From contig NZ_JQKD01000017.1 of NCBI RefSeq assembly GCF_000745855.1, forward strand, positions 1-64,000: DNA of 64,000 bases. Direction: 5' to 3'. The DNA is from Xenophilus azovorans DSM 13620. GTDB taxonomy: Bacteria > Pseudomonadota > Gammaproteobacteria > Burkholderiales > Burkholderiaceae_C. Positions 19,101-61,329 of the stretch are shown one piece after another; position 1 is the first letter of the stretch, and the number at the start of each line of letters is the position of its first letter. The notes under the pieces were generated by a model. That model did no database searches. It saw nothing but the letters and a program-made list of their open reading frames with translations, and was not told the DNA's origin. Both the position numbers and the translations under genes were made by a program.

Positions 19101-19131
19101 TCCTTGTCAATCGAACGCCCATCCGCATGAG

Positions 19132-20361: not shown

Positions 20362-20663
20362 GGGTTGCCGTCGCCGGGGTCGTCGTCCTCGGAAGCGTGC
20401 AGGTGGGCGAAGGTCTGCGCGAGGTCGCTGGCACGCAGGGGGCCGGTGGGGGCGGCATCCAGCCTCAAGGCGAGCCCCAAGGGAGGCAGGATGGCCAGCA
20501 GGGAGCGCAGCGAGACGTCCTGCCCCGCCTCCAGCCGGTAGACGGGCATGCGCGACAGCCCGGCACGCTTGCCGAGTTCGGCCTGCGAGAGCTTTCTATC
20601 CCGTCGGGCCTGGCGCACGCGTTGGGCGATGTCTGCCAGCGCCAGCGGCGAATTGCTATTCAT
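20358..20663 (-). CDS. hipB: HipB-like XRE-family antitoxin (module 1)
   Basis: From ATG 20663 the protein is 101 aa with a Cro/C1 HTH at about 10-62 (ADIAQRVRQARRDRKLSQAE, then GKRAGLSRMPVYRLEAGQ) and an acidic proline-rich tail. A longer frame to 20735 exists, but the operator repeats at 20671-20692 lie in it, which argues for the shorter start (ATG 20672 is an alternative). It is coupled to hipA by a 4-base overlap. Confidence 0.85.
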   Translation of the reverse strand: MNSNSPLALADIAQRVRQARRDRKLSQAELGKRAGLSRMPVYRLEAGQDVSLRSLLAILPPLGLALRLDAAPTGPLRASDLAQTFAHLHASEDDDPGDGNP

Positions 20664-20670
20664 CCATAGC

Positions 20671-20692
20671 ATTCTGCTTTCATTCTGCAGAA
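20671..20692 (-). promoter_or_regulatory. Probable HipB operator (module 1)
   Basis: ATTCTGC occurs twice (20671-20677 and 20682-20688), and the second copy is part of the perfect palindrome TTCTGCAGAA (20683-20692). The block lies 8-29 bases ahead of the chosen hipB ATG. This is a typical place for an autorepression site; binding is inferred. Confidence 0.5.
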
Positions 20693-20754
20693 ATGCAATG
20701 TTTTCGTAGCAATCGCGTCCACTTCGGTTTTTCATTCATATGGGCGCAGGCTGC

Positions 20755-22050: not shown

Positions 22051-22394
22051 CACAGCGCCCCCGAACGGCCATCGCGCTTGCTGCTGCGCACGCGCTTGGG
22101 CACCTGCTCATCCATCAGCATCAGGCCAATGTCGTCCTGGGGCGTGTCCAGCAGCTTCTCCAGGGCCTGGATTTCGCCGAAGACGTGCAGGGCGCGGGCA
22201 TAGAAGTGGATGGGCACCCGCATGTCGCCTTTTTCCATGCGGCGCACGGTGGACACGGATGCACCCATGCGTTCGGCCAGCGAGGCCTGGGAGATATGGC
22301 GGCGCCGACGCGCCAGGGAGATGTCGCCGCCGAGCTTGCGGACGGCTCGCTCCACCGGCAGGGGGACGAGGGTATTCACATTGAAGTCTCCCAT
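22050..22394 (-). CDS. hipB: HipB-like XRE-family antitoxin (module 2)
   Basis: This 114-aa protein starts at ATG 22394. The HTH spans about 18-70 (AVRKLGGDISLARRRRHISQ, then LAERMGASVSTVRRMEKGD). After it come PIHFYARALHVFGEIQALEKLL, a HipB-like dimer helix region, and a basic tail. A -10 box TATAAT lies 39 bases upstream. It is only distantly similar to the first HipB, so the two modules were probably acquired separately. Confidence 0.85.
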   Translation of the reverse strand: MGDFNVNTLVPLPVERAVRKLGGDISLARRRRHISQASLAERMGASVSTVRRMEKGDMRVPIHFYARALHVFGEIQALEKLLDTPQDDIGLMLMDEQVPKRVRSSKRDGRSGAL

Positions 22395-44574: not shown

Positions 44575-45078
44575 ATGAGCAGCTTCACCCTTCACAGCCC
44601 CGACATCGCCGCCGACGGCACCATCGACAAGCGCTTCGAGTTCGACGGCTTCGGCTGCAGCGGCGAGAACAAGTCGCCCGCGCTGCAGTGGAGCGGCGCG
44701 CCGGCGGGCACGAAGAGCTTCGCCGTCAGCGTGTACGACCCGGACGCGCCCACCGGCTCCGGCTTCTGGCACTGGATGGTGGTGGACATCCCCGCATCGG
44801 TGACGGAACTGAAGGCCGATGCCGGCGCCGCCGGCGGCGCCAGGCTGCCGGCCGGCGCCTCGCACATCCGCATCGATTACGGCGTGTCGGCCTTCGGCGG
44901 CATGTGCCCGCCGCCGGGCGACAAGCCGCACCGCTACGTCTTCACCGTGTACGCGCTGGGCGTCGAGAAGCTGGAGCTGCCGCCCGACCCGACGGCCGCG
45001 CTGGCCGGCTTCATGATCAACGCCAACCTGCTGGGCAAGGCCGGCTTCACGGCGCACTACGGGCGGCCGGCGGCATGA
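44575..45078 (+). CDS. YbhB/YbcL-family PEBP-like protein
   Basis: This 167-aa protein starts at ATG 44575 (GGAG about 11 bases upstream; an ATG at 44566 is too close). It has the phosphatidylethanolamine-binding protein fold: ENKSPALQWSGAPAGTKSFAVSVYDPDAPTGSG (about 33-65; DPDAP is the ligand pocket), FWHWMVVDIP and DKPHRYVFTVYAL near 121. There is no signal peptide. Bacterial members are of unclear role. It is coupled to the lipoprotein gene by ATGA. Confidence 0.9.
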   Translation: MSSFTLHSPDIAADGTIDKRFEFDGFGCSGENKSPALQWSGAPAGTKSFAVSVYDPDAPTGSGFWHWMVVDIPASVTELKADAGAAGGARLPAGASHIRIDYGVSAFGGMCPPPGDKPHRYVFTVYALGVEKLELPPDPTAALAGFMINANLLGKAGFTAHYGRPAA

Positions 45079-45257
45079 GCGGGCTTTTGCAGCGGATCTG
45101 CGCGGCCCTGTGCGTGCTGGGCCTGGCAGCCCTCGCCTCGGGATGCGCCAGCCCGGCCGGCGGCGACGGCGCGCCGGCCGCCACGCGCAGCGGCGTGGAA
45201 GTCTTCGGCACCATCGACGCCGGCGTCAGCAGCGTGAAGAACAAGTCGGGCCGATAG
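45075..45257 (+). CDS. Small outer-membrane-type lipoprotein
   Basis: This 60-aa precursor starts at ATG 45075 overlapping the PEBP stop. A basic start and hydrophobic core (ALCVLGLAALA) end in the lipobox LASGC, cut before Cys 24. The mature part is about 37 residues: Gly/Ala-rich, then VEVFGTIDAGVSSVKNKSGR, which resembles the first strand of Burkholderiales porins. Function unknown. Confidence 0.7.
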   Translation: MSGLLQRICAALCVLGLAALASGCASPAGGDGAPAATRSGVEVFGTIDAGVSSVKNKSGR

Positions 45258-45282
45258 GCGCGACGCAACACCGGCCGTGCCG

Positions 45283-46173
45283 TCAGGCGCGCGCGCGGCC
45301 CTTGCGCTTCTGGATGTCGGGCTCGAGCGTGTCGAAGAAGGCCCGCACCATGCGCATCTCGCGTCGCTCGGCCAGGCACAGCACATGCGTGTAGGTGCGG
45401 ATCTGCGCGTCGCGGATGCGCACCATGTGCAGGCCGGGGCCCGGCACGTACTCGACCAGTGACACCGCGGCGATGCCCAGGCCCTGGGCGACCGCCTCGC
45501 GGATGATCTCCCGGCTGCTGATCTCCATCACGACCTCGGTCTTCACGCGGGCCTTGGCCAGTGCGGATTCGAGCGCCTTGCGCGTGGTGGAGCCCTGCTC
45601 GCGCAGGATCATCCGCTCACCCTCCAGTTCCGCGATGCCGATGTCCCGCCGCTGCGCGAAGCGGTGCGTGCCGGCGGTGAAGATCACCACGGGGTGCTCG
45701 CTGAAGGGCACGGAGACGAAGCGGTCGTCGCGCACGAACTGCGCGAGGACGCCCACGTCGGCGCGGTAGTCCAGCAGCCGGTCGAGCACGTCCTGCGAGT
45801 TCCCCGTGCTCACCGACACCTTGACCCCCGGGTATTGGCGGCTGAAGCCGCCGAGCATCCGCGTGACGTGATGCGGCCCCACGGCGGCCACGCGCAGGTG
45901 GCCGCTGCGCAGCTCGCCCGCGTTGCCCAGCAGCTGCACGGCATCGGCCTCCAGGCTGAACATCTGCTGCGACAGCTGCATGAGCTGCTCGCCCAGCTCG
46001 GTGAGCTGCACGGAGCGCCCCCGCCGGTGGAAGAGCTCGATGTTGTACGTCTCCTCCAGCAGGCGGACCTGCGTCGTGATGGTGGGCTGGCTCACGTGGA
46101 GGAGTTCGGCCGCGGAGGTGAAGCCTCCGGTGCGCGCGACGGCGTGGAACGAGCGCAGTTGGGTGAGCCGCAT
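45283..46173 (-). CDS. LysR-family regulator of the phosphonate locus
   Basis: This 296-aa LysR protein has an N-terminal HTH (about 1-60: LRSFHAVARTGGFTSAAELL, then HVSQPTITTQVRLLEE) and a periplasmic-binding-type effector domain. The HTH resembles the LysR group linked to 2-aminoethylphosphonate breakdown genes. It is divergent from the ABC importer across a 198-bp gap with a 13-bp palindrome. It most likely activates the operon when a phosphonate is present. Confidence 0.85.
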   Translation of the reverse strand: MRLTQLRSFHAVARTGGFTSAAELLHVSQPTITTQVRLLEETYNIELFHRRGRSVQLTELGEQLMQLSQQMFSLEADAVQLLGNAGELRSGHLRVAAVGPHHVTRMLGGFSRQYPGVKVSVSTGNSQDVLDRLLDYRADVGVLAQFVRDDRFVSVPFSEHPVVIFTAGTHRFAQRRDIGIAELEGERMILREQGSTTRKALESALAKARVKTEVVMEISSREIIREAVAQGLGIAAVSLVEYVPGPGLHMVRIRDAQIRTYTHVLCLAERREMRMVRAFFDTLEPDIQKRKGRARA

Positions 46174-46235
46174 ATGGGATTTGCCTTGCGTAGTATCCCG
46201 GACAAACTATTCATTCAGTATATGTGAAGGCATCA

Positions 46236-46248
46236 CAAATTCAATTTG
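46236..46248. promoter_or_regulatory. Palindrome in the lysR/importer gap, likely LysR site
   Basis: CAAATTCAATTTG is a perfect inverted repeat (six-base arms, one-base centre) in AT-rich DNA between the divergent genes. A 10-of-13 match lies ahead of phnA at 55244-55256. Repetition at two promoters of one locus supports a regulator site. Confidence 0.55.
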
Positions 46249-46371
46249 CTCAATGGATACCGCCCTCCAATAATTTGCTCGCATACAAGGCATGGAAAGC
46301 CCTCGGGAGGGCGTTTCGCGCGATCTGCAGGACGCCCGGACATGTGCTGACATATCTAACAGGAGACCACG

Positions 46372-47940
46372 ATGAGGCAGAACCAGAGCATGCCGATGGA
46401 CGCCATGCGCCGCAGGCTGCTGATGGGCGCGGGCGCCACCACCGCGCTGACGCTGGGCGATCTTCTGGGCCCCGCGGCGGCCCAGACCGCAGCGCCCAGG
46501 CGTGGCGGCAAGTTCGTCTACACCAACACCTACCCCAACAACCGGATGGGCGATGCGCGCAACGGCCGCCATCCGCAGCACTGGCTGGACCTGAACAACC
46601 GCAGCGCCTACAACGCGCTCACCTGGGTGGACGAAAACCTCGAGGTGCAGCCCGAGCTGGCCACCGCGTGGGAGCCGAGCGACGACCTCAAGGTGTGGGA
46701 CATCACGCTGCGCGAAGGCGTGACCTTCCACGACGGCCGCGAGATGACGGCCGACGACGTCGTGTCCTCGTACAGGTTCCACCAGGCCTCGACGGGCTAC
46801 GCCAAGCAGATCGTGGGCGTGGAGAAGGTCGGCCGCAAGGTGCGCATGACGCTGGACGCACCGAACAGCGAGTTCCCGTACATCCTGGCCGAGTACCACC
46901 TGATGATCATGCCGGCCGCCGAGAAGGAGACGATCGGCCTCGCCGGCATCGGCACCGGGCCGTTCAAGATCGTGAGCCTGGACCCCAAGCGCCGCATCAT
47001 CCTGGAACGCCACGAGACGTACTGGCGCCAGGGCTTCCCTTACCTCGACCGGCTCGAGGTGGTGAGCTCGCCGGGCCGCATGGAAGGCGCGCTCAACGGC
47101 TTCCGCGGCGGCCTGTTCGACGCGGTGATCGGCGTCGACCCCGGCCTGCTGCCCGACCTGGAGCGCACGCCCGACCTCAAGTACAACCTGTCGAGCAGCG
47201 GCGACCAGGCGATCATGATCATCCCCAAGCACGAGGGCACGCCGCTCAACGACAAGCGCGTGCGGCAGGCCCTCGCGCTGGCGATCGACCGCGAGAAGAT
47301 CGTGCGCATCGTCTACGGCAAGAACGCCGGCTGGGTGGGCAACGATTCGCACCTGACCCCCGCGAACGCCTCGTTCACGCCGCTGCCGCGCATCCACGAC
47401 GTGGCGCGGGCGCGGGCGCTGCTGGCCGAGGCCGGCCATCCCAACGGCATCACGCTGCCCACCTTCTACTTCGCCGCCACCTGGCCCGAGGTGCCGCGCA
47501 TCTTCCAGGTGCTGGCCGAATCGGTGAAGGAGGCGGGCATCACGCTGCCGATCGAGCAACGCCCCAGCGACGGCTACCGCAAGTGGCGCGTGGAGGACGT
47601 CGAGAAGACGCGCAAGCACCGCTTCGCCTACACGCCCGCAGGCCCGCGCAACCCGGGCGTGAGCCTGTACCGCATGCGGCCGGACAACAACGAGAGCGGC
47701 TACTGGAGCGGCCCGGGCTGCGACGAGTACATGGCGCTCTACCAGAAGTCGCTCGCCGAGTCCTCCGGCGACAAGCGCCGCGCGATCTACGTGCGCATGC
47801 AGGAGATCCTGCGCGACGAGGTGCCGGCCATCAGCCCGGCGGGGCGGCGCAACCTCGTGATCCACAAGCCCAACGTGCACGGCCTGCGCAACCACTCGCA
47901 GTTCTGGTCGATGCGCTTCGACGAAGTCTGGAAGTCGTGA
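46372..47940 (+). CDS. ABC importer substrate-binding protein (SBP_bac_5 family)
   Basis: This 522-aa protein starts at ATG 46372, with AGGAG 7 bases upstream. A Tat-type leader (MRRRLLMGAGATTALT) ends near AAAQT. The body is of the peptide/nickel family: ELATAWEPSDDLKVWDITLREGV near 90, FHDGREMTADDVVSSYRF, and LNDKRVRQALALAIDREKIV near 290. It catches the substrate in the periplasm for the two permeases that follow. Family members bind peptides, opines, sugars or metals, so the phosphonate role comes from context. Confidence 0.88.
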   Translation: MRQNQSMPMDAMRRRLLMGAGATTALTLGDLLGPAAAQTAAPRRGGKFVYTNTYPNNRMGDARNGRHPQHWLDLNNRSAYNALTWVDENLEVQPELATAWEPSDDLKVWDITLREGVTFHDGREMTADDVVSSYRFHQASTGYAKQIVGVEKVGRKVRMTLDAPNSEFPYILAEYHLMIMPAAEKETIGLAGIGTGPFKIVSLDPKRRIILERHETYWRQGFPYLDRLEVVSSPGRMEGALNGFRGGLFDAVIGVDPGLLPDLERTPDLKYNLSSSGDQAIMIIPKHEGTPLNDKRVRQALALAIDREKIVRIVYGKNAGWVGNDSHLTPANASFTPLPRIHDVARARALLAEAGHPNGITLPTFYFAATWPEVPRIFQVLAESVKEAGITLPIEQRPSDGYRKWRVEDVEKTRKHRFAYTPAGPRNPGVSLYRMRPDNNESGYWSGPGCDEYMALYQKSLAESSGDKRRAIYVRMQEILRDEVPAISPAGRRNLVIHKPNVHGLRNHSQFWSMRFDEVWKS

Positions 47941-47950
47941 GCGGCCGGAC

Positions 47951-48907
47951 ATGCTCCTGACCCTGCTGCGGCGCGCGGGCCTGTACGCGCTGACCCTGCT
48001 GCTGGCCTCGATGCTGGTCTTCGTGGCCACCGAGGTGCTGCCCGGCGATGCGCTGGAGGTCAGCCTCACGGCCGACGAGATCGCGCTCATGAACCCGGAG
48101 GACCTCGAGCGCAAGCGGCGCGACCTGGGCCTGGACCGGCCGGCGCCGGTGCGCTACCTCGAATGGCTCGGCGGCGCCCTGCGCGGCGACTTCGGCAAGA
48201 CCATCCTCGGGGACACGCCCGTCATCGACATCATCCGCGAGCCGCTGAAGAACTCGCTGCTGCTCGGCGCCGTCACCGCGCTGGTGGCGATACCGCTGTC
48301 GCTGCTGCTGGGTATCGTCGCCGCGTACTGGCGCGGGCGGCTGCCCGACACGCTGGCCTCGATGGGCGCGGTCATCGGCTACTCCATCCCCGAGTTCGCG
48401 TCGGGCAACCTGCTGGTGCTGCTGTTCGCGATCTGGGTGCCGCTGTTCCCCGCGGTGATCCTGGCCTTCGCCGACGCGCCGCCCGCCACCCTGCTGGCGG
48501 TGTCGGTGCTGCCCGTGGCGACCATCGTGTTCGGCTCGATCGCGCACCTCGTGCAACTCATCCGCACCGGCCTCATCGAGGCGCTGTCGAGCGACTATGT
48601 CGAACGCGCCCGCTTCACGGGCCTGGGCGAGCTGCGCCTGATCCTGCGCCATGCGCTGCCCGCCTCGGTGATCCCGGCGCTGAACTCGGCCGCGCTCTAC
48701 GTGGCCGGGCTGCTCAGCGGCATGGTGGTGGTGGAGAAGGTCTTCGCCTATCCCGGCCTCGGCATGATCCTGCTGCAGGCCGTGGACAAGCGCGAGGTGC
48801 CCACGGTGCAGGCCGTCAGCCTGCTGGCCGCGCTGGCCGTCGTCACGATGAACCTGCTGGCCGACCTCGCCGTGGTGGCCCTCGACCCCCGTGCAAGGAG
48901 CCGCTGA
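47951..48907 (+). CDS. ABC importer permease (DppB-like)
   Basis: This 318-aa protein has six helices. It opens RRAGLYALTLLLASMLVF and has LGLDRPAPVRYLEWLGGALRGDFGKTI near 57-84, both typical of DppB/OppB permeases. The cytosolic coupling loop has RTGLIEALSSDYVERARFTGLGE (EAA motif). ATG 47951 lies 10 bases after the binding protein gene. It forms the channel with the next gene product. Confidence 0.9.
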   Translation: MLLTLLRRAGLYALTLLLASMLVFVATEVLPGDALEVSLTADEIALMNPEDLERKRRDLGLDRPAPVRYLEWLGGALRGDFGKTILGDTPVIDIIREPLKNSLLLGAVTALVAIPLSLLLGIVAAYWRGRLPDTLASMGAVIGYSIPEFASGNLLVLLFAIWVPLFPAVILAFADAPPATLLAVSVLPVATIVFGSIAHLVQLIRTGLIEALSSDYVERARFTGLGELRLILRHALPASVIPALNSAALYVAGLLSGMVVVEKVFAYPGLGMILLQAVDKREVPTVQAVSLLAALAVVTMNLLADLAVVALDPRARSR

Positions 48908-48910
48908 ACC

Positions 48911-49752
48911 ATGATGATCAAGCTGGACCGCCATGCGCTGCTGCGTCCCGTCGCCGTCGTCGGCATCGGGCTCGTCGTGGTGCACCTGGCGCTCGCGCTG
49001 GCCGCGCCCTGGCTCGCGCCGTACGACCCGATGGCGCTCAACGGCGGCCGCGCCGAGCCGCCGAGCGCGGAGTTCTGGCTCGGCACCGACGTGCTCGGCC
49101 GCGACTATCTTTCGCGCCTGCTGTGGGGCGGCCGCACCGCGCTGCTCGCCACCTTCACGGGCGTGGTCGCGGCCGTCGCCTTCGGCAGCATCGCCGGGGT
49201 GACCGCCGCCTACGTGGGCGGCCTGTTCGACGACATCGTGATGCGCATCGTCGACCTCAAGCTCGCCCTGCCGGGCATCCTGTTCGTGGCGCTGTTCGCG
49301 GTGGGCTTCGGCGAGTCGCTGCCGGTGCTGATCGTGCTCATCGGCATGGTGTACTTCCCCGGCGTGATCCGCATCGTCCGCGCGCAGGCGCTCACGCAGG
49401 TGAACCTCGGCTACGTGAAGGCGGCGCAGCTGCGCGGCGAGAGCACGCTGTCGATCATCCTGCGCGAGCTCTACCCCAACACGCTGGACGTGGTCTACGT
49501 CGAGTTCGCGATCCGCATGTCGCACGCCATCCTGCTGCTGAGCTCGCTGTCGTTCCTCGGCATGGGCATCTCGCCGCCCACGCCCGACTGGGGCCTGATG
49601 GTGGCCGAGGGCGTCAGCCAGCTCGCCTACGCGCCGTGGCTCGTGCTGGCGCCGGCCGTCTTCATCGCGACGCTGGTCATCGGCCTGAACTTCGGCGCCG
49701 AGGCGCTGGCCCGGGCGCTCGGACTGGACGCCACGCGCGGGCAGGACGCGGC

Positions 49753-49756
<4 letters not shown>
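48911..49756 (+). CDS. ABC importer permease (DppC-like)
   Basis: This 281-aa protein starts at ATG 48911 (48914 also possible), three bases after the DppB-like stop. FWLGTDVLGRDYLSRLLWGGR near 54-75 is the DppC/OppC signature. The coupling loop reads RIVRAQALTQVNLGYVKAAQLRGE near 155. Six helices are predicted. Its stop overlaps the ATPase gene start as ATGA. Confidence 0.9.
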
Positions 49757-51500
<1,744 letters not shown>

Positions 51501-51504
<4 letters not shown>

Positions 51505-52304
51505 TCAAGCTGATCCACATCACCGACCCGCACCTCGTCGCGCCCGGCGAGATCCTGCACGGCCTGGACCCGCACGCCCGGCTCGTCGCCTGCATCGGCG
51601 ACGTCCTCGCGCACCATGCCGACGCGGCCTGCGCCGTGATCACGGGCGACCTCGCGCACCGCGGCGAGGCGCCGGCCTACGCGGCCCTGCGCGCGCAGGT
51701 CGACCGGCTGCCCTTCCCCTGCTTCCCGCTGCTCGGCAACCATGACCTGCGCGCGCCGTACGCCGCGGCGTTTCCCGATGCGCCGGACGACGGCGGCGGC
51801 TTCGTGCAAGGCCGCCTGGACGTGGGGGACGCGTCCCTGCTCATGCTCGACACGCTCGACGAGGGACGCAACGGCGGCCTGTACTGCGAGCGGCGCCGCG
51901 CCTGGCTGGAGCGGCAGCTGGAGCAGACGTCGCAGCGCGCCGTCTACCTGTTCATGCACCACCCGCCGTTCGACATCGGCATACCGTGCCTGGACCGCAT
52001 CGGCCTGTCCGACCCCGAAGCCTTCGCGCGGCTGACCGCCGGCCGCCCGAACCTGCGCCACCTGTTCTTCGGCCACGTCCACCGGCCCGTGTGCGGAAGC
52101 TGGCGGGGCATTCCCTTCTCGACCATGCGCGGGCTGAACCACCAGGTGCCCTTCGACCTGCACACGGTCTCGCCGGTGCCCAAGAGCCACGAGCCGCCCG
52201 CCTATGCCGTCGTCTTTCTCGAGGCGGACCAGGTCACGGTGCACTTCCACGACTACCTCGACCGCTCGACGCTGCCCGAACGCGCGGGCAAGGCGATGCC
52301 ATGA
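51501..52304 (+). CDS. GpdQ/CpdA-like metallophosphodiesterase
   Basis: This 267-aa calcineurin-type enzyme is coupled to the ATPase by ATGA. Metal motifs are HITDPHLV near 6-13, ITGDLAHRG near 46, LLGNHDLR near 76, LFMHHPPFD near 153 and FFGHVHRPV near 188. This is the class III cyclic-nucleotide/glycerophosphodiesterase group; GpdQ-type members also cut phosphonate esters. Encoded inside an importer-phosphonate operon, it probably frees a phosphonate from a diester in the cytosol. Confidence 0.88.
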
Positions 52305-53560
52305 CGCCGGGCCGCCGCGCGGTCGTCGTGGTCTGCGACAGCCTGGCCGCGGACCTGGTGCGGCCCGAGACGGCGCCGGCCCTGTCGGCGCTGCGCGCCG
52401 CGGGTGCGGACTTCGCGCAGGCGCGCAGCGTGTTCCCCTCCACCACCCGGACCAGCTCCGCATCGATGGCCACCGGCTGCCTGCCCGCCGCGCACGGGCT
52501 GCTGGGCAACACCATGGTGATCGACGAGGGCCTCGGGCTGGTGCGGCTGTCGGTGGGCAAGCCGGACTTCCTGGACAGGCTGCGCCGCGCGACCGGCCGC
52601 ACGCTCGCCCGGCCCACCTGGGCGCAGCGGCTGGCGGGCCGCGGCGGATCGATCGTGATGTCCAACGTGTCGCCGGGCGCGGCCTACCTGCAGGACCCGG
52701 AGGGCTTCGGCCACGTCTACCACCGCAGCGGCTCCTTCGGCCCCGGGCGCAGGCCGCTGGACGACGGCCTGGCGATCGAGGTCGGCGCGGCGGGCGACGC
52801 GGCGATGACCGACCGCTTCTGCCGCGAGGTGCTGCGCGCGCGTGCGCCGGCGCTGGCCGTGCTGTGGCTGTCCGAGCCGGACCACACCGCGCACCGCACG
52901 GCGCTGGGCTCGCCCGCGCACCGGGCCATGATCGCGCACGCCGACGCCTGCGTGGAGCAGGTGCGGCGCACGGTCGACGCGCTGGACCCGCGCGGTGAGG
53001 ACATCCTGCTGGTCGCCTGTTCCGACCACGGCATGGAGACCGTGGCACGGCAGATCGACCTCGACGCGCTGCTGGCGGACGCGGGCTGGAAGGACGCACC
53101 CGATTCGCCGGACGTGGTCGTGGCGCCCAACGGCACCGCGGCGCTGCTGTACTTCGCCGCCGCCGCGCGCCCGCGCATCCCCCGGCTCGCGCGATGGCTG
53201 CAGGCGCAGGACTTCGCTGGCCGCGTGTTCTGGGGCGACGCGCTGGCCGAGGTCGGCCTGCCCGCAGGCGGCCCGCTCGGCATCGCGCTGGCGCTGCGCG
53301 CGGACGACGCCGCCAACGCGCACGGCGTGCCGGGGCGCAGCGTCTCGGTCAGCAGCCCGTTCAGCGACACCTCGGCGCCCGGCTGCGCCCAGCACGGCGG
53401 CCTCGGGCCCAACGAGCAGCATCCCTTCCTCTGCCTGCGGGGCGGCGGGTTCCGCCCCGGCAGACGCCACCAGCGCGTGTCGCTCATCGACATCGCGCCG
53501 ACCGTGCTGCGCCATCTCGGCGCCGCCGCCGACGGCATGCAGGGGCGCGGGCTGCAGTAG
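52301..53560 (+). CDS. Alkaline-phosphatase-superfamily hydrolase (nucleotide pyrophosphatase type)
   Basis: This 419-aa protein overlaps the previous stop (ATGA). Metal Asp in VVVVCDSLAADL near 13, nucleophile Thr in PSTTRTSSASMATG near 48, WLSEPDHTAH near 187, ACSDHGME near 238 and AQHGGLGPNEQHPF near 365 give the type I phosphodiesterase/NPP metal site. It shares this fold with PhnA, encoded 1.8 kb downstream, but lacks the PhnA FTNPNN motif. It could split a phosphonate or phosphate monoester; no signal peptide is seen. Confidence 0.82.
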   Translation: MTPGRRAVVVVCDSLAADLVRPETAPALSALRAAGADFAQARSVFPSTTRTSSASMATGCLPAAHGLLGNTMVIDEGLGLVRLSVGKPDFLDRLRRATGRTLARPTWAQRLAGRGGSIVMSNVSPGAAYLQDPEGFGHVYHRSGSFGPGRRPLDDGLAIEVGAAGDAAMTDRFCREVLRARAPALAVLWLSEPDHTAHRTALGSPAHRAMIAHADACVEQVRRTVDALDPRGEDILLVACSDHGMETVARQIDLDALLADAGWKDAPDSPDVVVAPNGTAALLYFAAAARPRIPRLARWLQAQDFAGRVFWGDALAEVGLPAGGPLGIALALRADDAANAHGVPGRSVSVSSPFSDTSAPGCAQHGGLGPNEQHPFLCLRGGGFRPGRRHQRVSLIDIAPTVLRHLGAAADGMQGRGLQ

Positions 53561-53611
53561 GCGCGCCGCGCGGGCGCGCCCTGCCTTCCATCCGCTTCGA
53601 GGAGCCGACCC

Positions 53612-55219
53612 ATGCACCGCCGTGACCTCGCCCGCCTCGTCACCGCCGCCGCGGCCGCCACCGCGCTGCCGCGCTGGAGCTGGTCCGCCACGCTGCGCCA
53701 GCGCGACCTGTTCGCCCTGGGCGTCGCCAGCGGCGCCCCCCGGCCCGACGGCTTCGTGCTCTGGACGCGGCTGATCGACGGCCCGGTGCCCGGCACGGTG
53801 CCGGCCGACGCGCCGCGCGGCCGGCTGCCCGAGGCGTTGACCGTGCGATGGGAAGTGGCCGAGGACGACGGCTTCCGCCGGATCGTGCGGACAGGCCAGG
53901 CCCCCGCGCTCGCGGCGCTCGGCCACGCGGTGCACGTGGAGGTGGCGGGGCTGATGCCCGGCCGGTGGTACTTCTACCGCTTCATGCACGGCGATGCGGC
54001 CACGCCGCCTGCGAGAACCCGCACGGCGCCCGCCGCGGGCGCGATGCCCGACCGCCTGCGCTTCGCCTTCGCATCCTGCCAGCGCTGGGAGCAGGGCCTC
54101 TACGCGGGCTATCGCCACATGTCCGGCGAGGACCTCGACCTCGTGCTGTTCCTGGGCGACTACATCTACGAGTACGCGATGCCGGCCAAACCGCCGAAGC
54201 ATGCGCTGGCGCGCACGCACAGCCTGCCCGCCGCGCAGACGCTGGCCGACTACCGCGACCGCTACGCGCTGTACCGGACCGACCCGCACCTGCAGGCCGC
54301 ACACCGCGCCTGTCCCTGGATCGTCACCTGGGACGACCACGAGGTGCAGAACGACTATGCGGGCCTGTCCGGCAGCGGCGCGGCGGATGCCTTCCTCGCG
54401 CGCCGCGCCGCCGGCTACCAGGCCTTCTACGAGAACATGCCGCTGCGCTCGTCGGTGCTCGCGCACGGCCTGGCCGGCCTGGGCACGCACGACGCGCTTC
54501 GCATCCACGGCGGCCACGCCTGGGGCCGCCTGCTGCGCCTGCACCTGCTCGACACGCGGCAGTACCGCGACCGGCAGGCCTGCCGCACGCCGGGCGGCAA
54601 GCTGCAGGGCGCGCTGTCGCCGCGGGACTGCCCCGAACTGGCCGACCCCGCGCGCTCGATGCTCGGCATGGCGCAGGAGCGCTGGCTGGGCCAGGGACTG
54701 GCGCAGGACGCGGCGCCGCAAGGCGTGCAGTGGAGCGTGCTGGCGCAGCAGACCATCTTCGCGCAGCGCAACTACAGGCCGTCGCCCGAGGAGAGCTACC
54801 ACGCCAGCACCTGGGACGGCTACCCCGCCGCGCGCCAGCGGCTGCTCGACGCCGTGCGCGACACCGCGCCGCGCAACACCGTGCTGCTCGGCGGCGACAT
54901 CCACCAGAACTACGTGTGCCGCGTCCTGGCGGACTTCTCGAAGCCGCGCTCCGCCGTCATCGGCAGCGAGTTCTGCGGCACCTCGATCAGCTCGGCCAGC
55001 AACGTCCCGCAGGCCCGGGTCGAAGAGATCGCGCGGCTCAACCCGCACGTGCTGCTCGCCCGCTCCGACCGGCGCGGCTACGCGGTCGCCGAGGTCACGC
55101 CCGCGCGCTGGACCACCACGCTGCGCGTGCTCGACGACGTCATGCGCGAGGACAGCGGCATCTCGACGTTGGCCCGCTTCGTGGTCGAGGACGGCCGGGC
55201 GGGACCGCAGCCGGCGTGA
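53612..55219 (+). CDS. phoD: PhoD-family alkaline phosphatase/phosphodiesterase
   Basis: This 535-aa protein has a Tat leader (HRRDLARLVTAAAAATAL). It has the PhoD N-terminal Ig-like domain (FALGVASGAPRPDGFVLWTR) and catalytic domain with FASCQRWEQG near 151, LFLGDYIYEY near 181, VTWDDHEVQNDY near 234 and LLGGDIHQNY near 430, which bind Ca2+ and Fe3+. GAGGAG before the ATG is a strong ribosome site. Exported PhoD would release phosphate or trim esters outside the membrane. It is 51 bases after the NPP-type gene. Confidence 0.92.
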   Translation: MHRRDLARLVTAAAAATALPRWSWSATLRQRDLFALGVASGAPRPDGFVLWTRLIDGPVPGTVPADAPRGRLPEALTVRWEVAEDDGFRRIVRTGQAPALAALGHAVHVEVAGLMPGRWYFYRFMHGDAATPPARTRTAPAAGAMPDRLRFAFASCQRWEQGLYAGYRHMSGEDLDLVLFLGDYIYEYAMPAKPPKHALARTHSLPAAQTLADYRDRYALYRTDPHLQAAHRACPWIVTWDDHEVQNDYAGLSGSGAADAFLARRAAGYQAFYENMPLRSSVLAHGLAGLGTHDALRIHGGHAWGRLLRLHLLDTRQYRDRQACRTPGGKLQGALSPRDCPELADPARSMLGMAQERWLGQGLAQDAAPQGVQWSVLAQQTIFAQRNYRPSPEESYHASTWDGYPAARQRLLDAVRDTAPRNTVLLGGDIHQNYVCRVLADFSKPRSAVIGSEFCGTSISSASNVPQARVEEIARLNPHVLLARSDRRGYAVAEVTPARWTTTLRVLDDVMREDSGISTLARFVVEDGRAGPQPA

Positions 55220-55243
55220 GCCGCGCCGCCCCGTTCATATAGA

Positions 55244-55256
55244 TAAATTGAATGCG
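55244..55256. promoter_or_regulatory. Second putative LysR site, ahead of phnA
   Basis: TAAATTGAATGCG matches the palindrome at 46236-46248 in 10 of 13 positions. It lies in a short AT-rich island (about 55238-55290) between phoD and phnA, which also holds TTGATCAA at 55276-55283. This suggests a second promoter under the same regulator. Confidence 0.4.
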
Positions 55257-55279
55257 AAGCTGATTTAGAAAGTATTTGA

Positions 55280-56596
<1,317 letters not shown>

Positions 56597-56612
56597 AGAA
56601 GAAAACCGAGCG

Positions 56613-57719
56613 ATGACGACGACCCACTACTTCAACCCCGTGCACATCGTCCACGGCGCGGGCGCGCTGTCCGCGCTGCCCGGCCTGCTCGAAGGGCGCC
56701 GCGCGGCGCTCGTGATCTTTCCCGAGGCGCGCGGCATCGGGCTGACCGCGCGGATGGAGCGCGCGCTCGGGGACGCGCTGGCATGCGTGATCGAGGACGT
56801 GCGCCCCAACCCCGACGTGGCGGAGCTGCGCCCGCTGTACGAGCGCTTCTGGCGCGAGCAGGCCGACACGGAAGTCATCGTCGCCGTCGGCGGCGGCAGC
56901 GCGATCGACACGGCCAAGGCGCTGATGACCGGCACGGCCGGCGGCGGATTCGATGCCCTGGTGGCCGGCCTCGCGGGCGACGCGCCCTTCGCGCCGACAC
57001 ATTTCAAGTCGCTCGTCGCCATTCCCACCACGGCCGGCACCGGCAGCGAGGTCACGCCGTGGGCGACGGTGTGGGACCGCGAGCGCCAGCGCAAGTACTC
57101 GCTGCACCTGCCGCAGACCTGGCCCAGCCATGCCGTCATCGACCCCGAGCTCATGCTGTCGCTGCCGCCCGCGGTGACGCTGCAAAGCGGCCTCGACGCG
57201 CTGTCGCACGCGCTGGAGGCCATCTGGAACGTCCACGCCAACCCGATCTCGGACACCTTCGCCGTGTCCGCGGTGCACGACATCGTGGCGGTGCTGCCGC
57301 AGCTCATGGCGCAGCCCGCCAGCCTCGAACTGCGGGGCCGCATGGCGCTTGCCGCGCTGAAGGCGGGCATGGCCTTCTCGAACACGAAGACGGCGCTCGC
57401 GCATTCGATCTCCTACGAGATGACGCTGCGCCACGGCCTGCCGCACGGCATCGCCTGCTCGTTCATGCTCGACGACGTGCTGTCCCGCGCCCTGGGCCAG
57501 CGCCCCGACCGCGACCGCGTGCTGGCCGAGGCGCTCGGCGCACCGCTGGAGGACGCCCCGCGGCGGCTGGCCGCCTTCATCGAGGGCCTGGGCGTGAAGA
57601 CGCGCTTCGCCGACTACGGCGTCGACGAACAGGAGGCCCGCGACATGGTCCTGCACGCGCTGTCGGGCGTGCGCGGGCGCAACTTCATCGGCGCGCAGCC
57701 GGCGGGAGAGCAGCCATGA
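56613..57719 (+). CDS. Fe-dependent (group III) alcohol dehydrogenase, phosphonoacetaldehyde-linked
   Basis: This 368-aa protein starts at ATG 56613. It has NAD site VAVGGGSAIDTAKAL near 90, IPTTAGTGSEVTPWA near 135, and metal ligands in LQSGLDALSHALEAIW (Asp, His), ALAHSISYEM (His) and HGLPHGIAC (His). Related enzymes in phosphonate synthesis interconvert phosphonoacetaldehyde and 2-hydroxyethylphosphonate. Here, between phnA and phnY, oxidation of 2-hydroxyethylphosphonate to the aldehyde is the likely direction. Substrate is inference from context. Confidence 0.82.
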   Translation: MTTTHYFNPVHIVHGAGALSALPGLLEGRRAALVIFPEARGIGLTARMERALGDALACVIEDVRPNPDVAELRPLYERFWREQADTEVIVAVGGGSAIDTAKALMTGTAGGGFDALVAGLAGDAPFAPTHFKSLVAIPTTAGTGSEVTPWATVWDRERQRKYSLHLPQTWPSHAVIDPELMLSLPPAVTLQSGLDALSHALEAIWNVHANPISDTFAVSAVHDIVAVLPQLMAQPASLELRGRMALAALKAGMAFSNTKTALAHSISYEMTLRHGLPHGIACSFMLDDVLSRALGQRPDRDRVLAEALGAPLEDAPRRLAAFIEGLGVKTRFADYGVDEQEARDMVLHALSGVRGRNFIGAQPAGEQP

Positions 57720-59170
57720 GCGCCGCACGCCCGAGGGACAGCGAACACTTCCGCGCGGAGGGCCTGCGCATCGACGGGCAGCGCGTGATGCGCCCGCGCA
57801 CCTCCGACGTGCTGGACCCGTACAGCGGCGAGCGCGTGGGCACCGTGGCCCGGGCCACGCTGGAGGACGTGCGCGAGGCGATGCGCGTGGCCCATGCCTG
57901 CCGCCCCCGGCTGACGCGCCACGAGCGCGCGGCCATCCTGCAGCGGGCCGCGGCGCTGCTGCGCGAGCGGGCCGACGAGGCGTCGGCGCTGATCACGCGC
58001 GAGTCCGGCCTGTGCCGCAAGGACTCACTCTACGAGGTCGGCCGCGTGGCCGACGTGCTGGTGTTCGGTGCGGGAGAGGCGCTGCGCGACGACGGCCAGG
58101 TCTTCTCGTGCGACCTGACGCCCCACGGCAAGCGGCGCAAGGTGGTCACGATGCGCGAGCCGCTGCTGGGCGTCATCACCGCGATCACGCCCTTCAACCA
58201 CCCGATGAACCAGGTCGCGCACAAGGTGGTTCCCAGTATCGCCACCAACAACCGCATGGTGCTCAAGCCGTCGGAGAAGGTGCCGCTGTCGGCGCTGTAC
58301 CTGACCGACCTGCTCTACGAGGCGGGGCTGCCCACCGGGATGCTGCAGGTCGTCACGGGCGACCCGCGCGAGATCGCCGACGAGCTGCTGACCCACCCGC
58401 ACGTGGAGATGATCACCTTCACCGGCGGCGTGGCCATCGGCAAGTACATCGCGTCCAAGGCGGGCTACCGCCGCATCGTGCTCGAGCTGGGCGGCAACGA
58501 CCCGCTGATCGTGATGGAGGACGCCGACCTCGACCGCGCCAGCGAGCTGGCGGTGCAGGGCTCGTACAAGAATTCCGGCCAGCGCTGCACGGCAGTCAAG
58601 CGCATGCTGGTGCACCGCGCGGTGGCCGGCGAGTTCACCGAGCGCGTGGTCGAGAAGACCCGCCACTGGCGCTTCGGCGACCCGGCGGACACCCGGGTCG
58701 ACATGGGCACGGTGATCGACGAGCCCGCGGCCCGGCTGTTCGAGCAGCGCGTGGACGAGGCCGTGGCCCAGGGGGCGCGGCTGCTGTGCGGCAACCAGCG
58801 CGCCGGCGCCCTCTACGCGCCCACCGTGGTCGACCGCGTCGACCCCGCCATGGCCCTGGTGCGGGAGGAGACCTTCGGCCCGGTGTCGCCCATCATCACC
58901 TTCGGCGACATCGACGAGGCGATCCGCATCTCCAACGGCACCGCCTTCGGGCTGTCCTCGGGCGTGTGCACGAACCGCATGGACTACTTCACGCGCCTGG
59001 CCAACGAGCTGCAGGTGGGCACCGTGAACCTGTGGGAGGTGCCGGGCTACCGCATCGAGCTGACGCCCTTCGGCGGCATCAAGGACTCGGGCCTGGGCTA
59101 CAAGGAGGGCGTGCAGGAGGCGATGAAGTCCTTCACCACCTGCAAGACCTTCACCCTGCCCTGGCAGTGA
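57716..59170 (+). CDS. phnY: Phosphonoacetaldehyde dehydrogenase
   Basis: This 484-aa NAD-dependent aldehyde dehydrogenase overlaps the previous stop (ATGA). ITPFNHPMNQVAHKV near 160, KPSEKVPLSA near 183, the Glu region VLELGGNDPL near 258, and catalytic Cys 291 in SGQRCTAVKR match PhnY of Sinorhizobium in length and Cys position. It oxidises phosphonoacetaldehyde to phosphonoacetate, the substrate of PhnA. Generic succinate-semialdehyde-type activity is the alternative, but phnA in the same operon argues for PhnY. Confidence 0.9.
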   Translation: MSAARPRDSEHFRAEGLRIDGQRVMRPRTSDVLDPYSGERVGTVARATLEDVREAMRVAHACRPRLTRHERAAILQRAAALLRERADEASALITRESGLCRKDSLYEVGRVADVLVFGAGEALRDDGQVFSCDLTPHGKRRKVVTMREPLLGVITAITPFNHPMNQVAHKVVPSIATNNRMVLKPSEKVPLSALYLTDLLYEAGLPTGMLQVVTGDPREIADELLTHPHVEMITFTGGVAIGKYIASKAGYRRIVLELGGNDPLIVMEDADLDRASELAVQGSYKNSGQRCTAVKRMLVHRAVAGEFTERVVEKTRHWRFGDPADTRVDMGTVIDEPAARLFEQRVDEAVAQGARLLCGNQRAGALYAPTVVDRVDPAMALVREETFGPVSPIITFGDIDEAIRISNGTAFGLSSGVCTNRMDYFTRLANELQVGTVNLWEVPGYRIELTPFGGIKDSGLGYKEGVQEAMKSFTTCKTFTLPWQ

Positions 59171-59171
59171 C

Positions 59172-60500
59172 GTGCCCGGCCCGTCGATCCAGATGGCGCA
59201 GGGCGCCGAGTGGCCCTACCTCGAGATCCTGCTGCGGCTGGCGCTGAGCCTGTCGCTGGGCCTGCTCATCGGCCTGGAGCGCGAGCGGCGCGGCAAGGAA
59301 GCGGGGCTTCGCACCTTCGGCTTCATCTGCCTGCTGGGTGCGCTCGGCGGCCTGCTGGGCGTGCGCTTCGCGCTGCTGGTGCTGGCGCTGGTCGGCGTGC
59401 TCGCGGTGCTGCTCAACGTACAGACGCTGCGCGCCGGCCAGGGCGCCGAGCTGACCACCTCGGCGGCGATGCTCGTGACCTGCCTGGCCGGCGTGCTCTG
59501 CGGCCAGGGCCACACCGTCTCGCCGGCCGCCGTGATGGTGCTGGCCACGGCCCTGCTGGCCTGGAAGGAGCGGCTGGCCGGCTTCTCGGCGGGCCTGAGC
59601 GAGAGCGAGATGCGCTCCGCGCTGCTGCTGGCGATCCTCGCCATCGTGATCTACCCGGCGCTGCCTGCGGGCACGGTGGGCCCGTGGAACCTGGTGGAGC
59701 CGCGCGCGGCGTGGGTCACCGTCATCCTCATCGCCGGCATCGGCTTCGCCAACTACATCCTCTGGAAGCTCTACGGCGCGCGCGGCACGGAACTGTCGGG
59801 CTTCCTCGGCGGCCTGGTCAACAGCAACTTCACCGTGATCGAGCTGTCCTCGCGCGTGGTCGCCACGGGCGGCCGCTTCATCGGCCCGGCCTACCGCGGC
59901 ATCCTGCTGGCGACCACCGCGATGGTGGTGCGCAACGCCGGGCTGCTGCTCATCCTGGCGCCGCTCGCGCTGCTCGGCGCCTCGGCGTCCTTCGGGCTCA
60001 TGCTGCTGGCGAGCGGCGCGCTGGCGCTGCTCAGCTATCGACGCGGCGCGCCGCAGGCGGCCGAGGCGCAGGCGGTGGACATCCAGCTCGACCTGCCGTT
60101 CTCCCTGCCCCTGGCGCTGAAGTACGGCGTGGTGTTCCTGATCCTGCACATCGTGGGCGGACTCACGCAGCAGCACTTCGGCGATGCGGGTTTCTACGTC
60201 GTGAGCATCGTCGGCGGCCTGATGTCCAGCGCCAGCGCCATCGCCGCGGCGGCCACTCTCGCCTCGCAGGGCAGCCTGTCGCCCGGGACCGCCGGCATCG
60301 GCGCGGTGCTCGCGTCGCTCACCAGCCTGGGGTTCAGCATGTCCTTCGTGCTGCGCACGCGGACGCCGGCGCTGATCGGGCGGGTGAGCACGGCGATGCT
60401 GTGCATCGCGGCCGCGGGCGTCGTCGGTCTCGTTGCCTGGCATGTCGGCCAGCCGCTGGCGGCGCGCCTGGTGCCGGCGCTGGCCGGCCTGCAGGGCTAG
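59172..60500 (+). CDS. MgtC/DUF4010-type integral membrane protein
   Basis: This 442-aa protein starts at GTG 59172, one base after phnY (ATG 59193 is the alternative). An N-terminal MgtC-like block (LSLSLGLLIGLERERRGKEAGLRTFGF near 27-54) is followed by a long DUF4010 part; about 12 helices in all, with VNSNFTVIELSSR near 217. MgtC proteins modulate membrane ATPase and Mg2+ response. Location at the end of the phosphonate operon may be chance or a phosphate/Mg link. Confidence 0.8.
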   Translation: MPGPSIQMAQGAEWPYLEILLRLALSLSLGLLIGLERERRGKEAGLRTFGFICLLGALGGLLGVRFALLVLALVGVLAVLLNVQTLRAGQGAELTTSAAMLVTCLAGVLCGQGHTVSPAAVMVLATALLAWKERLAGFSAGLSESEMRSALLLAILAIVIYPALPAGTVGPWNLVEPRAAWVTVILIAGIGFANYILWKLYGARGTELSGFLGGLVNSNFTVIELSSRVVATGGRFIGPAYRGILLATTAMVVRNAGLLLILAPLALLGASASFGLMLLASGALALLSYRRGAPQAAEAQAVDIQLDLPFSLPLALKYGVVFLILHIVGGLTQQHFGDAGFYVVSIVGGLMSSASAIAAAATLASQGSLSPGTAGIGAVLASLTSLGFSMSFVLRTRTPALIGRVSTAMLCIAAAGVVGLVAWHVGQPLAARLVPALAGLQG

Positions 60501-60513
60501 CCTGCGCCGGTCC

Positions 60514-61329
60514 TCAGGCCGGATCGGCGAAGCGCGCCGCACGCTTGTCCATTCCCGCGCGCACCGCCTCGGCCTGGTTGGGGCTGCCGATCAGCGCCTG
60601 CTGCTCGCGCGCCTCGGCCAGCAGCACCTCGGCCGGCGAGGCGGTTTCCGCCAGCGCCATCAGCCGCTTGGCGGCGCGGACCGCGTGCGGGCTGCTTGCG
60701 GCGATCTGCCGCGCCAGCGCGCGTGCATCCTCCAGCGGCGCGGCGCTGGTGCGGGTGACCAGGCCGAGCGCCGCCGCCTCGGTGCCTTCGACGATCCGCC
60801 CGGTGTAGACCAGCTCGCGCAGCACGTCGCCGCGCACGAGCGGCGCCAGCAGCGCGCAGCCGGCCATGTCGGGCACCAGGCCCCACTTGATCTCCATCAC
60901 GCTGAGTCTCGCGTCGGGCGCGGCGATGCGAACGTCCGCGCCCAGCGCGATCTGCAGACCGCCGCCGAAGGCCGCGCCGTGCACGGCGGCGATGACAGGC
61001 ACCGGAAGCTCGCGCCAGCCCCAGGCCACGTGCTGGAAGCGGTTGGCCAGGCCGTGCGTGCGCTCCTCCAGCGTGCCCATGCCCTGCCCCTGCGCGGCGC
61101 CGGCCATGCTGGCCATGTCCAGCCCGGCGCAGAAGGCGCGGCCCTCGCCGTGCAGCACCACGGCGCGCAGGCCGCGCGCCTCGCGCAGCCGGGCGATGAT
61201 GTCGTTGATGGCGTCGAACATCGCCGGATCGAGCGCGTTCATCTTGTCGGGGCGGGCCAGCATCACGTCTGCGACGCCGGCGTCGTCGATGTGCAGGCGC
61301 ACGCGGTCGGGATCGGGAGAAGCGGTCAT
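60514..61329 (-). CDS. Enoyl-CoA hydratase/isomerase family protein
   Basis: This 271-aa crotonase starts at ATG 61329. HGEGRAFCAGLDMASM near 60 is the first oxyanion-hole segment, and VHGAAFGGGLQIALGADVRI near 115 the second; the catalytic segment includes SVMEIKWGLVPDM near 142. It hydrates or isomerises enoyl-CoA in beta-oxidation. It lies 74 bases after the acyl-CoA dehydrogenase gene and ends 13 bases from the convergent membrane protein gene. Confidence 0.88.
   Translation of the reverse strand: MTASPDPDRVRLHIDDAGVADVMLARPDKMNALDPAMFDAINDIIARLREARGLRAVVLHGEGRAFCAGLDMASMAGAAQGQGMGTLEERTHGLANRFQHVAWGWRELPVPVIAAVHGAAFGGGLQIALGADVRIAAPDARLSVMEIKWGLVPDMAGCALLAPLVRGDVLRELVYTGRIVEGTEAAALGLVTRTSAAPLEDARALARQIAASSPHAVRAAKRLMALAETASPAEVLLAEAREQQALIGSPNQAEAVRAGMDKRAARFADPA

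Follow-up and report, generated by a model that had tools for sequence, protein, structure and literature searches.

A putative operon for the uptake, ester cleavage and hydrolysis of bound 2-hydroxyethylphosphonate

What would a peptide-type ABC importer and three phosphoesterases contribute to a set of phosphonate-degradation genes? The question is raised by a locus in a 64,000-nucleotide contig stretch of Xenophilus azovorans DSM 13620 (G000:C14:1-64000, hereafter the window), taken from a 6.5-Mb draft genome that is 99.6% complete. At 46372-59170, ten successive plus-strand genes encode a substrate-binding protein (SBP), two permeases, a fused double ATPase, a metallophosphoesterase (MPE), an NPP-like esterase, a PhoD-family protein, PhnA, the alcohol dehydrogenase PsrA and PhnY. 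A preliminary description had placed these genes in a single run on the plus strand, together with a LysR gene in divergent orientation, at 45283-59170, and profile matches were obtained for every gene that it named. The gene set it listed stops short, since a DUF4010/MgtC gene (59172-60500) also follows and recurs in Variovorax. We consider it probable that the run forms an inducible operon for an ester of 2-hydroxyethylphosphonate (HEP), in which the presumed ester, as the presumed ligand of the importer, is taken up, cleaved in the cytosol and converted by PsrA, PhnY and PhnA to acetate and phosphate. The features of the locus are the following.

45283..46173, minus strand, LysR-type regulator, divergent; TIGR03339 (phn_lysR) 317 bits, below the 341 cut-off
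46174..46371, no strand, LysR-importer spacer, holding the T-N11-A palindrome TGTGAAGGCATCACA at 46223-46237
46372..47940, plus strand, binding protein, SBP_bac_5, Dpp/Opp/Acc type; PF00496 219 bits, twin-arginine-like N-terminus by eye
47951..48907, plus strand, ABC permease 1; Opp/Nik/Dpp permease models all below cut-off; 91% identity in Variovorax, 69% in G250
48911..49756, plus strand, ABC permease 2; Opp/Nik/Dpp permease models all below cut-off; 90% identity in Variovorax, 76% in G250
49753..51504, plus strand, importer ATPase, a fused double protein; ABC_tran in two stretches, oligo_HPY; NF008453 469 bits (cut-off 408)
51501..52304, plus strand, MPE, calcineurin-like phosphodiesterase, GpdQ-like; PF00149, 2dxl E 1.4e-31, no signal peptide by eye
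52301..53560, plus strand, NPP-like esterase of the alkaline-phosphatase superfamily; PF01663 104 bits, no signal peptide by eye
53612..55219, plus strand, PhoD-family phosphatase/phosphodiesterase, probably Tat-exported; PF09423 345 bits, PF16655, RR N-terminus by eye
55220..55351, no strand, AT-rich spacer ahead of phnA, whose ATG start is at 55352; a GTG start at 55295 is also possible
55352..56596, plus strand, PhnA, phosphonoacetate hydrolase; TIGR02335 624 bits (cut-off 408), 1ei6 E 2.5e-183
56613..57719, plus strand, Fe-alcohol dehydrogenase PsrA, putative HEP dehydrogenase; TIGR03405 516 bits (cut-off 424)
57716..59170, plus strand, PhnY, phosphonoacetaldehyde dehydrogenase; TIGR03250 870 bits (cut-off 636), 4i3t E 1.2e-166
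59172..60500, plus strand, DUF4010/MgtC membrane protein; PF13194, PF02308; 82% identity at L082, 16.1-17.4 kb, beside PhoD

With the starts as chosen, 4-base overlaps are formed between permease 2 and the ATPase, the ATPase and MPE, MPE and NPP, and PsrA and PhnY, so co-transcription of these pairs is very likely. The gap between PhoD and PhnA (75 nt with the GTG start, 132 nt with the ATG start) is AT-rich, which makes a second promoter before PhnA possible.

Predicted route from 2-hydroxyethylphosphonate to acetate and phosphate

The chemistry after phosphonoacetaldehyde is ordinary. PhnY aligns with 4i3t over residues 13-483 and keeps the NSGQRCTAVKR segment, which we take to hold the catalytic Cys. 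PhnA residues 8-408 align with the solved phosphonoacetate hydrolase 1ei6, and the PSFTNPNN and TAKDK segments are kept; the roles of their residues are assigned partly from excerpts of PMC10574752 and partly from general knowledge. The preliminary description listed neither PhnW nor PhnX, and their absence extends to the whole source genome, where no protein exceeds the cut-off for PhnW (best 46.7 versus 400.8 bits) or PhnX (best 49.8 versus 220 bits). The C-P lyase protein PhnJ was likewise not found genome-wide. Therefore the PhnW route, direct phosphonatase cleavage and C-P lyase are unavailable to this organism, barring a non-homologous enzyme. As for PhnSTUV, also described as missing, no protein exceeds the PhnS2 cut-off (the highest score is 221 of 393 bits), but four PhnD-type binding proteins over cut-off lie elsewhere in the genome, from where PhnCDE-type import may still offer a route.

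How phosphonoacetaldehyde arises is suggested by the remaining dehydrogenase. The Fe-alcohol dehydrogenase is present as first described, but that label is too generic: the protein is a member of NCBIfam 'PsrA' (TIGR03405), a phosphonate-associated family. This family exceeds its cut-off in 14 of the 399 genomes of the order. PhnA is over cut-off in 8 of these 14 genomes, compared with 29 of the 385 others (p 5e-6), and psrA and phnA lie within 15 kb of each other in seven of the eight genomes that have both, G007 being the exception. We compared 22 psrA neighbourhoods, comprising all 14 genomes of the order over cut-off and eight of nine plasmid records (a second Vibrio plasmid was left out, and G240, with 343 bits, was excluded). 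Among the plasmid loci, L112, L113 and L128 pass TIGR03405, L129 (398 bits) fails, and L082, L125, L126 and L127 were unscored; the stretches are unequal in length (L120 9.8 kb, L121 13.3 kb).

At six of these loci (L113, L119-L122 and L126), psrA stands with phnX and with no phnW in the stretch. A PhnW homology query, run genome-wide for G000 and on the fetched stretches elsewhere, found a match in one of the 22 neighbourhoods, that of G250, where a PhnSTUV-PhnW operon is also present. The substrate of PhnX is phosphonoacetaldehyde rather than phosphonoacetate. Because psrA recurs with phnX without phnW, PsrA would most simply make phosphonoacetaldehyde, from the alcohol HEP. In addition, a TIGR03405 protein (531 bits) is located inside a phosphonate-biosynthesis cluster of G388 (L118, G388:C1:3050000-3069900, 7.1-11.9 kb), between a cytidylyltransferase-phosphoenolpyruvate mutase fusion followed by phosphonopyruvate decarboxylase on one side and a CDP-glycerol-type transferase on the other. 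This cluster looks like one that makes a HEP-bearing polymer; the PsrA family would there work in the making direction, beside enzymes whose families suggest attachment of HEP to a polymer. The comparison points to phosphonoacetaldehyde/2-hydroxyethylphosphonate as the PsrA couple. At the Vibrio pelagius locus L129 (10.0-14.6 kb), LysR and the psrA-like gene (398 bits) stand with phnDCE, and no C-P cleaving gene is annotated in the stretch.

Importer type and the import-and-cut genes

The importers at the psrA loci fall mainly into two groups. A cytosolic esterase candidate is present at 5/5 loci with the Dpp-type importer of the window and at 0/10 with a PhnCDE-type importer (Fisher p 3.3e-4, a guide only because the loci share ancestry); at the latter ten, no homologue of MPE, NPP, PhoD or the PHP protein was found within the stretch at E <= 1e-5 and 45 bits. 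Without the Vibrio locus L129, which is below cut-off, the latter count becomes 0/9. Seven loci stand outside both groups: L059 has a TRAP-like importer, L110 and L125 have MFS importers, none was recognised at L117, L123 and L127, and L118 is biosynthetic. Since importer type and cytosolic esterase go together, an ester is favoured as the substrate; in the simplest reading of these neighbourhoods, PhnCDE would take free HEP and the Dpp-type importer bound HEP. As a separate observation, a PF01663 gene and a phospholipase C gene lie upstream of LysR in L126 (Comamonas antarctica, 2.7-7.3 kb), and a phospholipase C homologue 80% identical to that of L126 is found near psrA in L125 (Variovorax PDNC026, 19.0-21.1 kb). 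These genes possibly release HEP from lipids outside the cell.

The binding protein belongs to the SBP_bac_5 superfamily (219 bits, Pfam gathering score 32). It misses the DppA equivalog NF043070 (71 of 1005 bits), and the OppA and GsiB cut-offs are also missed by far. AccA and its relatives are among its solved kin, a distant kinship based on sequence only. Its orthologues are 88% and 71% identical in the other full sets and 45% in Ensifer and Agrobacterium. A plasmid search with this protein matched 3848 records; among the best 25, three reach at least 45% identity (Variovorax 87.5%, Ensifer PDNC004 45.5%, Agrobacterium But001 45.5%), and the next stands at 30.7%. At each of the five loci seen whose binding protein reaches 45% identity, psrA is adjacent or in the island. 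The preliminary description would have been refuted by a lack of conserved importer-phnA/phnY linkage in other genomes; such linkage is seen at four of the five loci, the window among them, and the fifth has phnX. Three of these loci were found via the binding protein itself, whereas the window and G250 were found otherwise. The five loci span five arrangements and two classes. In Ensifer PDNC004, phnY-phnA-psrA face a LysR-SBP-permease-permease-ATPase-PHP protein series, and Agrobacterium But001 has phnX, LysR, psrA-SBP-permease-permease-ATPase and a PHP protein (75% identical). No MPE, NPP or PhoD homologue was found in either rhizobial stretch. The PHP-domain protein (31 bits, gathering score 26) ends the importer operon in both, and we infer that it is an esterase candidate.

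Three loci contain the full set, in each of which the import-and-cut module lies inside or adjoins the PsrA-PhnA-PhnY genes. Variovorax paradoxus VAI-C has an amidase, phnA, a psrA-type dehydrogenase gene, phnY, SBP-permease 1-permease 2-ATPase-MPE-NPP, a porin, PhoD, DUF4010 and acetate-CoA ligase, at 69-91% identity and in a gene order different from that of the window; the DUF4010/MgtC gene beside this set is 82% identical. In G250, SBP-permease 1-permease 2-ATPase-MPE-NPP (59-76% to the window) are accompanied by a PhoD-family gene on the opposite strand. The G250 module is flanked by a TRAP-like importer and psrA at one side; at the other lie a gene that by eye is of GntR type, PhnA, PhnY and a gene that by eye resembles a Na/Pi cotransporter. 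By blastn, G250 and its congener G022 are collinear at 78-82%, and 8.49 kb stand in G250 where G022 has 129 bp; PhoD-like, NPP, MPE, ATPase, two permease and SBP genes were recognised in this insertion. Moreover, in G323 (L035), a member of the same family, importer genes matching the PhnC/D/E references, and therefore counted as PhnCDE, are located between LysR (77%) and PhnA-PsrA-PhnY, at the place of the module in the window. From the G250/G022 insertion, the replacement in G323 and the three different positions, the module seems to move as a unit into PsrA/PhnY/PhnA loci.

The MPE and NPP families usually act on phosphodiesters, to which a phosphonate monoester is similar. The best solved relatives of MPE are 2dxl and 3d03, which we take to be GpdQ entries, and MPE was aligned with 2dxl over 216 profile positions. 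The motifs DxH, GD, GNHD, HH and GHxH, presumably with roles at the metal site, are present in this alignment and in invariant columns. MPE misses the SpdA cyclic nucleotide phosphodiesterase model NF050112 (250 of 400 bits). In the NPP-like protein, aligned with solved NPPs, D13, T49, D194, H198, D242, H243 and H365 are invariant in three sequences; we take them to be the two-metal ligands and the Thr nucleophile that define the NPP branch. PhoD misses the PhoD alkaline phosphatase model NF058638 (478 of 1000 bits) and belongs to the broader PF09423. A role of the NPP-like protein as a second PhnA-type C-P hydrolase was considered and rejected: it scores 27 of 408 bits and has SNVSPGAAY in place of the lysine pair (region matched by eye).

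NPP also associates with PhnA across genomes. Within the order, PhnA is over cut-off in 8/10 NPP genomes (E <= 1e-60) versus 29/389 others (p 1e-7). This threshold was set after the search and removes rows from G046, G100, G140 and G263 and the second G005 row; at 1e-20 there are 14 NPP genomes, nine with PhnA over cut-off. Counted by genus, the figures are 6/6 versus 18/153 (p 7e-6; genera were counted by hand, and one has the genes in different genomes). Five of the ten NPP genomes come from one genus, whose four genomes with PhnA, like G005, have the two genes on separate contigs. Over all searches, PhnA is in the fetched stretch at 9/19 NPP loci, the importers being of the Dpp, PhnCDE, TRAP or Ugp kind; L033 (34% over 67 residues) and the weak plasmid rows H6-H9 (about 30%) were excluded. 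On the NPP tree the PhnA label requires three changes, and a clade of the window, Variovorax and G250 receives full support. In a family sample of 349 genomes, NPP occurs in G000 alone and is missing from four congeners, and the module therefore looks acquired in the lineage of the window. In a phylum sample of 398 genomes, NPP occurs in G000, G870, G928 and G943, with PhnA in the stretch of G928 and not of G870 or G943.

Two further NPP-related arrangements were observed. In L083, L084 and L085 (Microvirga, Phyllobacterium, Rhizobium), LysR faces phnA-NPP, followed by a Dpp-type or PhnCDE importer; no phnY or psrA is in the stretch, an amidase occurs in two of the three, and the loci perhaps use a phosphonoacetate ester or amide. 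L067 (G005) and L072 (G169) have a distant PhnA (45%), an aldehyde dehydrogenase other than PhnY (32% to it) and a Dpp-type importer distinct from that of the window (SBP 24-26%).

Competing explanations and the surroundings of the run

The preliminary description had proposed that an esterified phosphonate is imported, cut, oxidised and hydrolysed. The comparative data support this proposal and point to HEP as the most likely compound, the ester and the ligand still being predicted from gene content. The substrate might, for example, be glycerol, a sugar or an oligosaccharide that carries HEP. In the periplasm, the exported PhoD may first shorten the ester or free small fragments of it, after which the SBP_bac_5 protein and the Dpp-type ABC importer would carry the still-esterified phosphonate into the cytosol, as Acc does for agrocinopine. 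There, the GpdQ-like MPE and the NPP-like enzyme would cut the P-O-C ester, chemically phosphodiester-like, and free HEP. PsrA is predicted to oxidise HEP to phosphonoacetaldehyde, a step for which comparison argues more strongly than for the preceding ones. PhnY and PhnA, whose family membership was tested and whose chemistry is known, would then oxidise phosphonoacetaldehyde to phosphonoacetate and cleave the C-P bond, giving acetate and phosphate. More tentatively, with somewhat under even confidence, we suggest that the locus represents a complete C-P-lyase-free route for bound HEP, with a mobile cassette for import and de-esterification that joins either PsrA-PhnY-PhnA or PsrA-PhnX. It would consume HEP-bearing polymers from neighbours that have clusters of cytidylyltransferase-PepM, phosphonopyruvate decarboxylase, HEP-forming reductase and transferase, such as that of G388 (same order); one alcohol dehydrogenase family would then run in one direction in the producer and in the reverse direction in the consumer.

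A number of observations weigh against an operon for HEP esters. The PHP protein was counted as an esterase only once it had been seen, and with it uncounted the comparison falls to 3/5 versus 0/10 (p 0.022, by hand). L036 (G314), a psrA locus without the window importer, has a PhoD homologue (34%) about 5 kb past phnA; other esterases may serve the L126 and L036 loci. G250 has importers of the TRAP-like and PhnSTUV kinds as well, so its Dpp importer does not stand alone. NPP and PhnA share one stretch in only 3/10 NPP genomes (G000, G250, G066), and PhnA is absent from the fetched stretch at 10/19 NPP loci. The rhizobial PhnA-NPP loci, with amidase and with neither PhnY nor PsrA in the stretch, indicate that NPP is not confined to HEP. 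Structure models were of low confidence, with mean pLDDT 37.7 for NPP (two-row alignment) and 34.8 for SBP (single sequence), and gave no readable pocket. Finally, MPE and NPP are general phosphodiester tools, and it is only their company here that makes the phosphonate case; the ester is deduced from families that are known for phosphodiesters and that also occur without phosphonate genes. Thus MPE homologues accompany Ugp-type importers, with no phn gene in the stretch, in Delftia and Tistrella (461 plasmid records matched MPE, and the neighbourhoods of three of the best 30 were examined). Likewise, L086 (Allorhizobium pseudoryzae, 4.8-13.3 kb) has a Dpp-type importer, GDPD, a metallophosphoesterase and NPP, with no PhnA, PsrA or PhnY homologue in 25 kb, and is likely a phosphodiester-use module.

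The Delftia, Tistrella and Allorhizobium loci, together with the AccA kinship of the binding protein and the AT-rich gap before PhnA, fit an alternative in which ordinary phosphodiesters (glycerophosphodiesters, sugar phosphodiesters of the agrocinopine kind, or nucleotides) are the substrates of the importer, MPE, NPP and PhoD, and PhnA-PsrA-PhnY are mere co-regulated neighbours. We regard such separate modules as unlikely, although this is the strongest of the rivals. The importer clade stands with psrA at all five loci seen, including those that lack MPE, NPP and PhoD and have a PHP protein after the importer; the LysR protein is near the phosphonate type, and the module keeps its place in or next to PsrA-PhnA-PhnY in the three full sets.

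It is distinctly improbable that the cargo of the Dpp-type importer is free HEP, or a peptide or amide with a phosphonate group, and that the esterases are accessories. The importer family is named for peptides, and amidase genes are neighbours of PhnA-NPP in Phyllobacterium and Rhizobium and precede phnA in Variovorax; yet the peptide-binding cut-offs (DppA, OppA, GsiB) are far missed, no peptidase or amidase is among the genes of the window run, and the ten psrA loci with a PhnCDE-type importer, a type suited to free HEP, have no esterase homologue. Least probable of all is entry as a phosphonoacetate ester or amide, with NPP freeing phosphonoacetate for PhnA and with PsrA and PhnY belonging to a second entry, for despite the phnA-NPP-importer loci L083-L085, psrA is constant in the importer clade and phnA is once swapped for phnX, the product of which acts on phosphonoacetaldehyde.

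An inducible operon for HEP esters would need a regulator, and LysR probably controls the gene run. It is a close relative of TIGR03339, an aminoethylphosphonate-associated family of which it is not filed as a member. Its orthologues stand beside a PhnCDE-type importer-phnA-psrA-phnY in L035 (77%) and beside psrA in G022/G250 (61-62%). The palindrome in the LysR-importer spacer is a possible LysR site. A promoter scan of 45000-60800 gave a single match, on the minus strand at 46244-46217, ahead of LysR (0.7 expected), and no sigma-70-like match on the plus strand of the PhoD-PhnA spacer. Pho-box control was considered and found unsupported: the window has four matches with <=3 mismatches versus 3.0 expected, none of them upstream of the operon.

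The DUF4010/MgtC protein may have a role in anion or phosphate balance. The window has its gene instead of the Na/Pi-cotransporter-type gene that L059, L061, L068, L110 and L128 have near PhnY or PhnA (annotated in L128, by eye and homology in the others), which perhaps exports phosphate when phosphonate is the carbon source. Elsewhere in the window, 2434-17607 on the minus strand looks by eye like a cluster of genes for glycans or the cell surface, where G+C falls to 49% at 6-8 kb, and small genes at 18139-22394 resemble by eye toxin-antitoxin pairs (PIN-type at 18567-18986, and two HTH-HipA-like pairs).

Comparison with known systems

The accessible parts of the open-licence literature contained no description that we found of a Dpp-type importer in phosphonate use, of PsrA or of a degradative HEP dehydrogenase, which is weak evidence of novelty. 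The locus and its relatives provide candidate genes for importing HEP esters, for cutting them and for a hydrolytic fate that would give acetate and phosphate and no ethylene, and the neighbourhoods suggest a function for PsrA. Since a few further bacteria also carry the import-and-cut genes, bacterial use of bound phosphonates becomes testable, with the G022/G250 pair and the PhnCDE-type relatives as natural controls.

In glycerophosphodiester use by UgpBAEC/UgpQ and GpdQ, an importer is combined with a cytosolic phosphodiesterase, as in the window. The window differs in importer family, and C-P bond cleavage follows. Phosphonate monoester hydrolase (PEH/PMH) acts on phosphonate monoesters and is a formylglycine-type member of the alkaline-phosphatase superfamily, whereas the window NPP has Thr49 at the nucleophile position. 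The psrA-phnDCE-phnX and psrA-phnDCE-phnA-phnY loci of Comamonas antarctica and Leisingera thetidis share PsrA with a phosphonoacetaldehyde route and a divergent LysR; theirs is a PhnCDE importer in an esterase-free operon, in contrast to the Dpp-type importer and three esterases of the window.

The esterase of the agrocinopine acc operon presumably belongs to a family different from the window esterases. According to excerpts of PMC4526662, this operon (AccA, AccBCDE, AccF, AccG) shares an SBP_bac_5 importer for an intact phosphodiester and a cytosolic phosphodiesterase, and differs in its sugar phosphodiester substrate, its regulator and its lack of C-P chemistry. The PhnW-PhnY-PhnA pathway of Sinorhizobium meliloti, as given in the available part of PMC10574752, shares the PhnY and PhnA steps to acetate and phosphate and a LysR-type regulator. 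The window has no PhnW over cut-off; its PsrA entry would start from the alcohol, not from transamination of aminoethylphosphonate, and the importer and esterases are added. Other entries to phosphonoacetaldehyde (PhnW, PbfA, PbfC, PbfD, PbfF) appear in excerpts of PMC12366243, PMC10590968, PMC8154272, PMC9381506 and PMC10574752, the first of which names oxidation of HEP as a less likely role of PbfF. In marine polysaccharides, esters of HEP and of methylphosphonate are used through C-P lyase. The part of PMC5649143 available to us reports HEP esters among the phosphonate bound to these polysaccharides, and postulates PhoD or PEH for cleavage of HEP/methylphosphonate esters ahead of C-P lyase. 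The two routes would thus share esterified HEP as a natural substrate and differ in outcome, as C-P lyase yields ethylene and the window genome, without PhnJ, is expected to yield acetate.

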